This document shows, piece after piece, positions 38,136-55,456 of a DNA stretch of 64,000 nt. The notes under the pieces were generated by a model, which saw nothing but the letters and a program-made list of their open reading frames with translations, did no database searches and had not been told where the DNA came from. A program made the position numbers and the translations under genes. The stretch is from Okeania sp. KiyG1. GTDB taxonomy: Bacteria > Cyanobacteriota > Cyanobacteriia > Cyanobacteriales > Microcoleaceae. Every line of letters begins with the position of its first letter. Position 1 is the stretch's first letter. The stretch spans positions 1-64,000 of the forward strand of contig NZ_BLZO01000110.1 of NCBI RefSeq assembly GCF_014132355.1, in the 5' to 3' direction.

Positions 38136-38422
38136 CGAATTATTAATTATTAATTATTAATTATTAATTATTAATTATTAAATAATTCTGGTTTAAAGCC
38201 TCCCCTTTTAAGGGGAAAAAGCGGTCGTTTGCGGAGCATTCCGTAGGATGGGATGGCGTTTTGCTCCGCAACATATAAAGCGGAGCGGCTCTGATAAGAG
38301 CGGGTCCCCTCGCCATATCCAATCGACCAAGAGAAGAAATAATATTTCCTTATATTCAATTCCGTAACGGTTAAAACCCGAGGTAATTATCAATTATCCA
38401 TTATCAATTATCAATTAATGAA
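38136..38422 (+). repeat. Palindromic CGAA...TGAA element, copy 2, inside a TnpB gene
   Basis: TTAC (38132-38135) then CGAATTATTAATT..., ending CAATTAATGAA at 38422. Joining TTTTTAC to CCATCCAATTATAGG restores the TnpB frame as LPIIGWVKTFEF on the minus strand. TTAATTA heptamers are near 38140-38178. The interior holds an extra GGAGCATTCCGTAGG / GGAGCGGCTCTGATAAGAGCG segment. Confidence 0.85.
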
Positions 38423-38631
38423 CCATCCAATTATAGGTAGTTTTATACGATTAAAATCTACTGTAATTGAGCCATCAAGAGTAAAGCTATCATCCCTACC
38501 TTTTTTCTTAAACTTAGGCTGACTAGACACTTTGGTAAAGCAGCGTTTCCAAGAAGTTGAAAATATATTAAAGCTACAAAATTATCTCCTAGACTTAGCG
38601 ATCGCTCAATCTCGCAACCAGGAAGCTTTTA

Positions 38632-38777
38632 TATCATGTCCGGTTGAACAGTTATAAATAAATAACGGCGGAGGAGTCAGGAGTCAGGAGTCAGAAGTCA
38701 GGAGGGAAGAAAGAAGAAGGAAGAAGAACTGGAGTTGAAGGAGAAAGTTTTTGATCACTAATTATCCGGACATGATA
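38632..38777 (+). repeat. TATCATGTCCGG element, copy 5
   Basis: Ends TATCATGTCCGG / CCGGACATGATA, TTA duplicated (38629-38631 and 38778-38780). GGAGTCA heptamers at 38669-38700. Nearly the same as copy 1 outside the heptamers. Confidence 0.88.
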
Positions 38778-38913
38778 TTACTATCAAAGCAAAAATTATA
38801 AACAGAAAAAATCAAAAGGAATGTCAAAGAAATTCCTGAAGCAATCTCATAGATATCCTACAGTTGAAGAGATTGCTTCGGGGTATCAATTTTTTCTGAA
38901 TTCCCTACCTCTA

Positions 38914-39648
38914 TCAAATAAATATTAAAGGTTTATCTTTTATCAAAGCAAATGCCTCAGAATTAAATCGATAAAGACTAGCTGGTCTACCTGCTCCCCG
39001 TGATGTTTTTATTCCAGTATCAGATAAGAAACCTAACTTTAGTAGTCTGGCCCGAAAATTAGAATAATCTGAAAAATTGTTTCCTAAAATAGTTGTATAA
39101 AGTTGATATAATTCCCCTAAAGTAAACTCCTCTGGTAGAACATCAAAAGCAACAGGACTATATTCAACTTTATTGCGTAATCTGAGATATCCATATTCAA
39201 TAATTTGTTGATGATCAAATGCTAACTGAGGAATTTGTTCGAGAGGATACCAAGCAATACCTGTTACTCCATCGGCAATTAATTCTGCTTCTTCAAATCT
39301 AACTAAGGCAAAATAACTAACTGATAAATATCGACAATTATAAATAGATTCTCTGGGGTCACGACCAGGACCGCCAAAACTATATAATTGCTCTAAATAT
39401 AGATTTTTGACCTTAATTTTTTCCGCTAAAATTCTGTAAGCTGCTGCTTCTAGAGATTCTCCTTGTATTACTAATGTACCTGGCAAACTCCAGTAGTTAA
39501 TAAATGGTTCCTTTTGTCGCATTACTAATAAAACCAATAGACGGTTTTGTTGAGTATCGACAGAAAAAATTACGTTATCTACTCCTACTTTAAAATCTGC
39601 TTTATTATTTTTATCATTTACACTTTTTCTATAGTCGCGTCCTGGCAT
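38914..39648 (-). CDS. NrtR-like NUDIX-domain transcriptional regulator of NAD metabolism
   Basis: 244 residues. The N-terminal NUDIX fold (VGVDNVIFSVD..., YWSLPGTLVIQGESLEAAAYRILAE) is followed by a winged-helix C-terminus (FTLGELYQLYTTILG... FRARLLKLGFL...GRPASLYRF). The NUDIX box is degenerate: where hydrolases have REuxEE this has RILAEK, so hydrolysis is unlikely. This matches NrtR regulators, which bind ADP-ribose and repress NAD genes. It overlaps the end of nadD by 31 bases on the same strand, and pncB and an ADP-ribosylglycohydrolase gene lie upstream, a fitting context. An enzymatic ADP-ribose hydrolase is the less likely alternative. Confidence 0.85.
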   Translation of the reverse strand: MPGRDYRKSVNDKNNKADFKVGVDNVIFSVDTQQNRLLVLLVMRQKEPFINYWSLPGTLVIQGESLEAAAYRILAEKIKVKNLYLEQLYSFGGPGRDPRESIYNCRYLSVSYFALVRFEEAELIADGVTGIAWYPLEQIPQLAFDHQQIIEYGYLRLRNKVEYSPVAFDVLPEEFTLGELYQLYTTILGNNFSDYSNFRARLLKLGFLSDTGIKTSRGAGRPASLYRFNSEAFALIKDKPLIFI

Positions 39649-52489: not shown

Positions 52490-53672
52490 AGCTTACTAAA
52501 CACCTATATTTTAACTTTTAAATTTTTTTATAAAGTTATTTTTAAATTATTGATTTATTTTAATTTTATTTTGATTTTATTTTGTAATTTTTTGGTTACT
52601 ATGTTACACTATTAATTTAAAATACAGCAGATTTCAGACTAATGTGGTACAATTGGCGGGCTAAATATTTTGTGCTTATGCGCTACCCTAATTCCCATCT
52701 ACCCTGATCCCTACTACTCCCTAAGACCATCAACATAAGTACCTCATAACGCGCGGAAACTGCTGTAATTAGCTATCCTTAATTATAAAAGTTACATTGA
52801 TTAGACGATCGAATCAAATAGCACCTGAAAAATTATCACACCCCGACCTAAACCTAATAATCATCTTGCGATCGATTGTTAATGTTACAACACAGATTTA
52901 ATTTTAATCTAAATAATTAAACTTTCCAGTAATTTGTAAATTTTTTTTAAGAGATTTTATGAAGATTTATGAATTGAAAAATGGGAAATTTAGGGGATAT
53001 TTAAAACATAAATGGTGGAGTTATCTATGTAAGCGATCGCTATCACAAAAAGGGAATAGGGAATAGGGAATAGTAATACCATTTCTCAAAAACTTTTCTA
53101 CATTTTGTTGAGTAGGGGACCCACCCCTAACCCCTCCCAGGAGGGGAAACTAGGGGAGTAGGGGAGTGGGGGAGAAGCAAAAATAAGAATAATTAACATT
53201 AACGCAAGGTGAAATTAGCATGCAAAGTGATTTTGTTTGTACCGATCAGTTGACAACTGAAGTACTGCCCAAGTATAGCAATAATGCATGGGAATTGGTA
53301 TAAACTGTTAAAGAGTTTTCGGTGCAATCCGTCAGGAAACAGGGTTTAGAAATGTTAAATACCTTAATGCGTAGCGCTATATCAGTTGTCACAAATAGTC
53401 AGCAACCGATCCGATGTGGAATAATAGGCTGAAATTATTGTATAGTCAATACTTTTTTCACTTCGCGCCTTCTGACTTTTGTACGTCGCCAATCCAGTGG
53501 CTCCCCTATCTGACTGACTTCCGTTAAATGGTATAACTACTTCTTCAAGTCGGTAGCGATCAAAAATTAGCCTTAGCATATAACTATAGCCTAGCTGAAA
53601 TACTTATATAAAATTTTAATAATTTTGTAAACAATAGTCATTATAAAATAGACAATTGAGTGGTATGAACCT
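52490..53672. other. Intergenic region without genes
   Basis: AT-rich leader of the GGDEF-EAL gene, GGGAATA heptamers (53053-53075), one copy of the CCCCTCC..GGAGGGG hairpin repeat (about 53110-53150), and AGGGGAGT tracts. A frame at 53382-53579 has no support. GCGATCGC at 53032-53039. Confidence 0.6.
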
Positions 53673-53868
53673 AAAAGTTATGCATAAATATAGTCATATA
53701 TAGCCAAATAATGCCAAATATCTTCGTTGATTTGTACAAAAGAGCTACTAAATATTTGACAAAATTTAATAACTCAAAGGCCAAAGATTTAATAGTATAA
53801 TGAAATTGGCTAATAATTCCAGACTAAATAAATAATCATAAAAATTCCTAAATGCTCCCATCCTAATA

Positions 53869-54105
53869 GTAAGCATTCAGCCGTCAGCCATCAGCTATCA
53901 GCTATCAGCTATTGTTTTTAATTTAGGATAAAAGCAATATTTAATTGTCTTAGTACAAAAGTTTGCTCCCTTGCCCTTAAAGTCAGTTGTTAATTTAAAC
54001 ACTGTCCTTAAGAAGAAAGTCTTGCTGCTGTTAACGCAGTTCCTCCGGGGGAGGCTAGCTGACAGCTAATAGCTGTTTGCGCAGCAGTCCGCAGGAAATG
54101 CTTAC
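53869..54105 (+). repeat. GTAAGCATT/AATGCTTAC element, copy 3, perfect 8-bp duplication
   Basis: GTAAGCATTCAGCCGTCAGCC...GCAGGAAATGCTTAC, 237 bp. TCCTAATA is duplicated at 53861-53868 and 54106-54113. Copy 1 of the host element has one TCCTAATA at this place (reverse complement near 18800-18807), so the empty site is in the window. Confidence 0.9.
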
Positions 54106-54133
54106 TCCTAATATAATTTTAACTCCTGGATTT

Positions 54134-55456
54134 ATGAAATTAGTTGAAAGACATATCCCATACAAAAAATTATCGGTTTTATGCTGAAATTGACAGATTA
54201 TATTTCTTGTCGAAAAATCTCTTAAACTCATGCTAATTATTTAGTTCATCAGTCTTGGATATTTGAAAAGATAAATAATTCCTATTATGACCTGCAAAAA
54301 ACACTCTCTACTCAACCAGACTATAAAGCAATGCCAGCTAAAGTCTCTCAACAAATCTTGATGATACGAGATAGAAACACCGAAAAGCTTTTTAGCAGCA
54401 AACGAAGTTTATAAACACCAAGCCATCAAAGTTTAAATCTCGTCCTCGTCTTCGGTGGATATAAAAATAAAGTAACGGGAAGAAATATTGTAGTTTATAT
54501 GATACAAGCTATCAGCAAGAAGCAATTAAAACAAGGAATTATTAATCCCAGTAAAACAAAGATTTATCTAAAAACTTTAGTACCTAATTCACAAATCAAA
54601 CAAGTTCGTATCATTCCTAGACTGAATCATTATGTAATTGAGGTCATTTATGAAGCGACAGAAAAACAATACGGGCTAGAAAAAAATCGTTGTGCCAGTA
54701 TTGATATAGGATTAAACAACTTAGCTAAATTTTCATGTCGGCGAGAGCCGAAACCTTTAATAAGCACCGGAATAAAACCCAAGAGTGATCAATGGCAGAC
54801 CCTTAAAATCTATCAATAAATACTATAATAAAGTCAAAAGCTTCCTACAATCTCAACTACAGGAAAATAGATCGAGTAAGAGGCTGAAAAAACTTATGTT
54901 AAAAAGAGAATTTAAAATCAACGATTACCTTCATAAATCATCTAGTAGTTTGATTATTAATACTTTGATTAATCAGAAAATAGGAACATTGATAATAGGG
55001 CACAATGAAGAGTGGAAACAGAAGATAAACTTAGGGAAAAGAAATAATCAAAATTTTGTATATGTCCCCTATAATAAGTTAATAGAAAAGTTATCTGATA
55101 AAGCCGAGATGGTAGGGATAGATTTCATTAATGGATAATGGATAATGGATAATTACCTCTGGTTAAAACCGAGAGGATTGAACATAAGGAAATATGATTT
55201 CTTTATTTTCCCCTTGTAGAGCGACAGCTCGCGGCGCAGCCAAGGGGAGGCGGAATTAGCTGAATTATTTAATTAATAATGATTAATGATTAATTATTCG
55301 GTAATAATTACAGAATCATCTTATACCTCAAAAGCGAGTTTTATAGATAATAATTTGATTCCAGTGTACAAGAAAGGTCAGAAAAATCAAGTCACCTTTT
55401 CAGGAAAAAGAGTAAAAAGAGGAATGCAATTGTACTGCAAGCATTGGATTAATTAA
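54134..55456 (+). pseudogene. tnpB: TnpB pseudogene, family B, copy 2
   Basis: Pieces in order: MKLVERHI (54134), broken by frameshifts; MIQAISKKQLKQGIINPSKTK to CASIDIGLNNLAKFSCRR (RuvC-I with Asp); MINGRPLKSINKYYNKVKSFL to MVGIDFING (RuvC-II region); then after the nested element VIITESSYTSKASFIDN...KKGQKNQVTFSGKR. Multiple frame changes plus an insertion: inactive. Confidence 0.8.
55124..55300 (-). repeat. Palindromic CGAA...TGAA element, copy 7 (reverse), with in-window empty site
   Basis: On the minus strand it follows TTAC and runs CGAATAATTAATCATT to CCATTAATGAA. The host copy at 17.8 kb reads AATTAC|ATCTATTCC with no insertion (junction 17796/17797). The interior holds the GTAGAGCGACAGCTCGCGGC segment also seen near 16711. 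Confidence 0.9.

Follow-up and report, generated by a model that had tools for sequence, protein, structure and literature searches.

The window analysed here is a stretch of 64,000 nucleotides (G000:C110:1-64000) from the genome of Okeania sp. KiyG1 (G000; 10.98 Mb in 198 contigs), and it carries seven copies of a small element that starts with CGAA and ends with TGAA. We consider it very probable that these are non-coding palindrome-associated transposable elements (PATEs) of the IS200/IS605 type, moved as single strands by a Y1 transposase acting in trans. They are recently active PATEs, ordinary in kind and unusual in build: their tails consist of heptamers, the right guide is re-paired and a third hairpin is present.

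Both termini are the same in 7/7 copies, and TTAC stands directly 5' of six of them, with TCAC at copy 3; a first-pass annotation of the window had described the ends and flanks in this way, and reading of the sequence bears it out. It had also reported that terminal inverted repeats are lacking, and none was seen by eye at the termini, where some subfamilies show only a short AT-rich likeness. Its list of seven copies stands as well, although it missed a degenerate copy within 16497-16836, the heptamer tails, the guides and an internal hairpin. Two-ended candidates from the sampled loci (113 in number) measure 100-398 bp, which is too short for transposase coding. The features of the window are as follows.

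Copy 1, 19036..19161 (+): 126 bp; AAAG (left) and CAAT (right) as guides, 39-base tail
Copy 2, 38136..38422 (+): 287 bp; left heptamers and internal hairpin module; within a TnpB relic
Copy 3, 40525..40671 (+): 147 bp; after TCAC, left guide TTAG
Copy 4, 42291..42514 (+): 224 bp; internal hairpin module present
Copy 5, 46855..46988 (+): 134 bp; tail of 46 bases
Copy 6, 48118..48248 (+): 131 bp; AATTCTA heptamer tail, left hairpin partly broken
Copy 7, 55124..55300 (-): 177 bp; within a TnpB relic, left guide TCCG
Degenerate copy, within 16497..16836 (-): left hairpin and module; left terminus not recognisable
Empty target site of the copy 7 paralogue, 17796..17797: TTAC followed by ATCTATTCC in a TnpB paralogue
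Empty target site of the copy 3 paralogue, 41161..41162: TTAC followed by GGCTCC in the intact duplicate of the interrupted gene

Exact ends, target sites and spread among genomes

Orthologous regions from five relatives were compared, and in filled and empty pairs between species the junctions (TTAC followed by CGAA on the left, TGAA followed by flank on the right) are base-exact, with zero duplicated bases. Insertions of one species were absent from the orthologous sites in others, and neither variable boundaries nor target duplications were found wherever filled and empty sites could be compared. For example, the empty site of copy 7 in G002 agrees in 46/50 flank bases, and the two empty sites proposed earlier within the window, at 17796/17797 for copy 7 and at 41161/41162 for copy 3, are confirmed by 45/50 flank bases each. 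The first-pass claim that removing copy 2 restores a TnpB reading also holds: in silico removal yields a single open TnpB frame through LPIIGWVKTFEF, and a TnpB paralogue in G005, with a left flank 81.8% alike over 77 bases, reads TGAC followed by CCATCCAATT at this place, so that the right end of copy 2 is fixed as well. The TCAC 5' of copy 3 looks like a later change, because the orthologous site has TTAC in G004 and TCAT in G002. Further differences between species include a 173-bp element of G001 (empty in G002 and G005, 45/50 flank bases), a 346-bp element of G004 (empty in G000 and G002, 50/50) and a 184-bp element of G004 (empty in G000, 35/50).

A scan of the orthologous alignments, in which the end motif was not used to find gaps, returned 81 raw gaps, including four distinct events with the full motif (346, 184, 221 and 177 bp) that show no shift and zero overlap in 4/4 cases; the 221-bp event is an element of G000 whose site is empty in G005. 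Other insertion families in the same scan have 4- or 8-base overlaps and form a built-in control, so the scan was able to see target duplications. Two candidate empty sites were dropped: at L152-14508 of G004 the left junction is empty but the right end is lacking, and at L149-2884 of G001 the flank is itself a repeat. In addition, G000 L154:8767-8954 was not counted as a full event owing to a one-base ambiguity and a lacking left linker. Comparison with orthologues gave no clean empty site for copies 4, 5 and 6, and copy 1 had no orthologous match in the relatives compared.

Copy 1 has three further identical 126-bp copies in G000 (four loci in all), plus one with three mismatches, and since no relative within three mismatches was found in G001-G005 and G012, these copies point to recent spread in the G000 lineage. 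The preference for TTAC, whose loss would have spoken against an element of this type, is strong: when left ends were located across 875 kb of G000 by a definition that ignores those four bases, TTAC lay directly 5' of 52/60 left ends, and for B-type left ends, a set partly overlapping the 60, it does so in 39/40.

Left ends are far more abundant in G000 than chance would give. A strict left-end pattern had 452 matches there and 0 for the reversed control, a figure that is not a pure count of small elements, as it includes the left ends of TnpB elements and counts at least one place twice. The survey covered 20 genomes, G000 included; five others of the same genus had 340, 254, 139, 368 and 241 matches (reversed controls 1, 0, 2, 0 and 0), G012 of the same family had 51, and the remaining genomes had 0 to 10 (controls 0 to 2). 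At the sampled loci, a right-end candidate was located within 420 bases of 113/172 left ends.

Hairpins, guides and heptamer tails

The left end opens with CGAA and a linker, after which come AAAG and, two bases further on, a hairpin. This tetramer is the left guide in 75/108 two-ended candidates; it starts 16 bases in for 58 of these 75, and 14 of the other 17 fall on 17+7n. Among the palindromes near the termini, the left hairpin is supported by an alignment of 24 of 32 distinct sequences (those 22 long), in which 90.5% of cells are paired and 14 cells are changed on both sides, with 0/500 shuffles as high for either measure. The compensatory changes run from C-G to U-A in 10/24 sequences and from U-A to A-U in 4/24. 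The right hairpins, 29 of which were chosen for alignment, were listed individually.

Just 3' of the left hairpin, many copies carry a third, internal hairpin module (GCGGTCG...CGACCAA, 46 bp or longer), whose start matched in 44/108 two-ended candidates, one of them (L128) falsely. Folding of the module core is strong (z -5.4). An independent search gave 39 modules; by our own reading, 38 of them stand behind a left hairpin of this kind (cut in one case) or behind another module, and a CGAA motif lies close upstream of 23. The module may be an original part of the elements, and it resembles the small repeats nested in the PATEs of Haloquadratum (PMC3119063).

The right end consists of CAAT, a hairpin and a tail ending in TGAA. 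In G000, CAAT ranks first among the tetramers of the interval in which it lies (76/87 copies), and it occurs in 72/93 copies from other genomes, where the overlapping AATC occurs in 73; copies without a tail anchor (8 in G000 and 9 elsewhere) were set aside for these counts. The end pattern was loose, and copies ending in TAAA or TCAA (6/101 in G000, 16/124 elsewhere) were excluded from the tail and guide counts, those ending in TTAA additionally from the tail-length count. In the IS608 code, position -1 is matched by the last base of the four-base guide; this position was not free in the CAAT-type pattern, its last two bases being fixed, and empty sites confirm TGAA.

The first-pass annotation had linked the elements to IS608, and its IS200/IS605-type reading is supported. 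In IS608, the left and right pairs of cleavage site and guide are TTAC/AAAG and TCAA/GAAT, with A+16:T-3 and A+17:T-4 pairing (PMC5934647). The Okeania elements share with IS608 the TTAC target, insertion 3' of it, the AAAG left guide and the guide-to-cleavage logic, but differ in having the guide and end CAAT/TGAA for GAAT/TCAA, no tnpA or tnpB, and long variable linkers (PMC5934647). The TTAC/AAAG left pair of an IS608 derivative is thus present and the TCAA/GAAT right pair is absent, so that the proposed match holds on the left and fails on the right. CAAT/TGAA can be read as the IS608 pair GAAT/TCAA after one swapped base pair, the change on one side being compensated on the other.

The same guide code mostly holds for the further right ends of these genomes, with exceptions. 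The TnpB-type right end has TCAA in 7/7 places, picked by a pattern that required GAAT and left the second base of the end free, and 5/7 have the shared left end. Read by eye, tnpA-tnpB class X (one copy) and class Z have GAAT/TCAA, and class Y has GAAG/TCAC. A putative second right end of the small elements, CAAG/TGAC, rests on pattern matches rather than on empty sites: among 17 places, CAAG occurs in 10, TGAC in 10 and both in 6, guides end in G in 15/17, and the last base is C in 17/17, under a pattern that permitted only C, T or A there and allowed few ends. The exceptions concern position -3, where 6/17 end in TTAC, three of them with CAAG. These places (L099:2780, L107:10395, L033 and 14 more) mostly read CAAG...(ACTGATA)n...TGAC, and several sit on the same left end.

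The tail between the right hairpin and the cleavage site is built of heptamers. In G000, 70/80 TGAA-ended copies with tails of up to 60 bases have a tail of 18+7n bases, the commonest length being 39 bases (42 copies); of all 85 TGAA-ended copies, 3 have longer tails and 2 were unread. In other genomes 69/87 tails are 18+7n, 10 further ones being longer; 15 more of the 87 fall on 1+7n, which we read mostly as the anchor placed elsewhere. Tails at the putative second right end are 19+7n in 17/17, with a pattern that itself asks for such units. The unit varies by subfamily (AATTATC, AATTCTA, ATTATTC or AATTATT) and is always seven long, except in one variant that bears GCGC. Tails adjoining the right flank of copy 5 measure 46, 39, 46, 46 and 32 bases in G000, G002, G005, G001 and G004, respectively; the left parts differ between these species and the right flank is shared, and the arrays thus change in place.

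Heptamer growth is general in G000, and the element tails share in it: period 7 accounts for 750/1376 tandem arrays in the 875-kb G000 sample (L091-L130, L154 and the window), and a loose rule classed 117 of the 750 as tails of these elements, the remaining 633 not being so classed. A few unit families dominate the period-7 arrays of the sample. Heptameric short tandemly repeated repetitive (STRR) sequences are known in cyanobacteria.

Together, these features suggest a mechanism in which a Y1 (HUH) transposase supplied in trans would bind both subterminal hairpins, and the guide tetranucleotide 5' of each hairpin would pair with a cleavage tetranucleotide, TTAC in the flank on the left and TGAA inside the element on the right. 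The element would be excised as a single strand and the donor resealed, and the resulting circle would be inserted 3' of another TTAC without duplication. Guide pairing, not fixed spacing, would allow right cleavage at 18 to about 60 bases from the hairpin, across the heptamers. A wider proposal is more tentative, and we hold it at somewhat less than even chances: one left end would be combined with several co-changed right pairs (CAAT/TGAA, CAAG/TGAC and GAAT/TCAA) in a superfamily whose non-coding members have an expandable heptamer gap, with cleavage set by guide pairing rather than spacing, and some cyanobacterial heptamer repeats would be such tails.

Transposase relatives and competing explanations

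TnpB elements of the same genome (Pfam OrfB_IS605, TNB) carry the same left end, TTAC followed by CGAAAAATTGGGTTTAAAGCCTC, but another right end, which suggests that the left ends of TnpB and small elements share one origin. L121 has tnpB in two frames and the others have only the ends; their GAAT/TCAA right end has a short spacer without heptamers. We take these to be IS1341-type elements, and their right end presumably resembles an omegaRNA end. TnpB genes ahead of a CAAT/TGAA right end were sought at 64 of 224 right-end motifs that had no left end close by, and none was found: a TnpB match lay at most 800 bases from three of them, but in two cases it is on the opposite strand, and the third motif (L186) resembles coding sequence. 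Separately, a TnpB relic at 44130-45411 of the window is absent from the orthologous place in G002 and G005, which holds about 220 other bases.

Y1 matches numbered 24 in G000 and 97 in seven relatives (121 in total), of which 24/24 and 30/97, respectively, were examined with their flanks (54/121). The first-pass expectation of a TnpA acting in trans fits the mechanism, and G000 has Y1 genes whose HUH and tyrosine motifs look intact by eye; supply in trans by one of the Y1 enzymes is what we infer. Left-end motifs (TTAC or TCAC, then CGAA) occur in Y1 flanks at L013/L023, L018/L022, L020, L031 and L032, and at L156, L167, L169, L170, L174 and L179, some plainly by chance, and guide-like motifs occur at L027 and L170. 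From the loci with a motif nearby, L013, L018, L167 and L179 were read on and rejected as autonomous partners, the motifs being separate copies beside the gene. Repeated Y1 classes have ends that differ from those of the small elements. One gene recurs beside an element.

L018/L022 (G000:C89), L167 (G002:C221) and L179 (G004:C277): Y1 gene (Pfam Y1_Tnp), presumably RAYT-like, with an element copy just downstream

Other repeats and insertions were noted nearby. Insertions at 46195-46378 (8-base overlap against G002/G005) and 40837-41041 (3-base overlap against G003) of the window have a dispersed palindromic repeat, GTAAGCATT..., at their ends, and a small insertion family that begins with CGAAGTCAGAAG... 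after TTAA has a 4-base overlap (L121:14597-14710, L277:2065-2157 and L143:8201-8375). The window also contains an open reading frame of 3178 codons (22814-32350) in which a 27-base repeat recurs many times and a 93-base repeat ten times, and a tandem 46-base repeat (33671-33829) with a C/G-rich palindrome that recurs near 53115 in inverse orientation.

Several results count against the single-strand, IS200/IS605-type reading. AAAG is not found in 33/108 candidates, which include a few chance matches and show other tetramers such as TTAG (copy 3) and TCCG (copy 7), and a copy with a TTAG guide is itself a difference between species (G001). The 24 left-hairpin sequences were gathered by a pattern already demanding a hairpin-like shape, and two of the five left-hairpin measures do not beat shuffles (299/500 and 500/500). 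No consensus fold was found for the 29 mixed right hairpins, and folding of whole elements was not better than shuffles (z -1.48 and +1.69). C is enriched at +1 (34/85), yet +3 and +6 are equally C-rich, and an IS608-like preference for C at +1 is not supported by these counts. Of 87 G000 copies, five end in TTAA and four of these keep CAAT, so that the pair predicted for -3 is broken. No matching guide/cleavage pair emerged from the left ends of tnpA classes X and Y, both resident here, and the 54 examined Y1 loci included no gene inside an element with the same ends. Finally, zero overlap is not unique to these elements, being seen as well in a few gaps that lack the motif.

Being small, non-coding and numerous, with AT-rich ends and, in some subfamilies, a short AATAATT near both ends, the elements could be taken for ordinary miniature inverted-repeat transposable elements (MITEs) moved by a double-strand DDE transposase. 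The inverted repeats and target duplications of such MITEs are absent, however: empty sites are exact and without duplication, just one of the two sides has a fixed tetranucleotide, inspection by eye showed no proper inverted repeat, and other families in the same alignments do show 4- or 8-base overlaps, which leaves this explanation extremely unlikely. It is very unlikely that the elements have lost their mobility and that the species differences reflect the loss of old insertions. In favour of this view, many copies are degenerate, elements of this class can excise precisely, and insertion and precise excision are indistinguishable within one filled/empty pair; against it stand copy 1 and its three identical sisters at four G000 loci, with no counterpart within three mismatches in six relatives.

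The recurrent Y1 gene listed above, with an element copy just downstream in G000, G002 and G004, speaks for repetitive extragenic palindromic (REP)-like repeats moved by a domesticated REP-associated tyrosine transposase (RAYT) rather than by an insertion sequence transposase. With hundreds of copies, however, chance alone should place about one beside such a gene, on a rough estimate. G000 has identical copies even though its version of the gene is interrupted (that of G004 has two stops), and cleavage sites and targets are complete in the elements (the REP tag GTAG was not searched for). We regard movement by a RAYT as very unlikely and favour movement by an IS200/IS605-type Y1 transposase in trans.

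Relation to known elements and significance

A close likeness is to the PATEs of Haloquadratum walsbyi, for which the source (PMC3119063) gives a definition of no terminal inverted repeats, palindromes near the termini, no duplication and too little length to code, all of which apply here. Both sets are non-coding, with subterminal palindromes, IS605-type-related ends, nested small repeats and strain-specific insertions (PMC3119063). The Okeania set differs in being cyanobacterial, in its heptamer-array tails and in having several right ends on one kind of left end. Strain-specific insertions of the Haloquadratum elements exist even though one strain has its IS200-type transposases only as pseudogenes (PMC3119063). 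The type II MITEs of Anabaena sp. 90 are likewise short, multi-copy and folded, with no parent insertion sequence; they are defined by terminal inverted repeats and are set apart here by description only (PMC3542288). Searches of the open-access literature returned work on PATEs, IS608 and cyanobacterial MITEs, and among the papers returned none had a title or opening of its abstract on such Okeania elements or on heptamer tails in IS200/IS605 elements.

With hundreds of copies and several natural guide/cleavage pairs, these elements allow the base-pairing rule of IS608 to be tested on natural sequences, and their heptamer tails raise the question of how a Y1 enzyme reaches a variably distant cleavage site. 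The tails are also one possible origin for some cyanobacterial heptamer repeats, and the exact ends provide markers for tracing recent transposition in Okeania.

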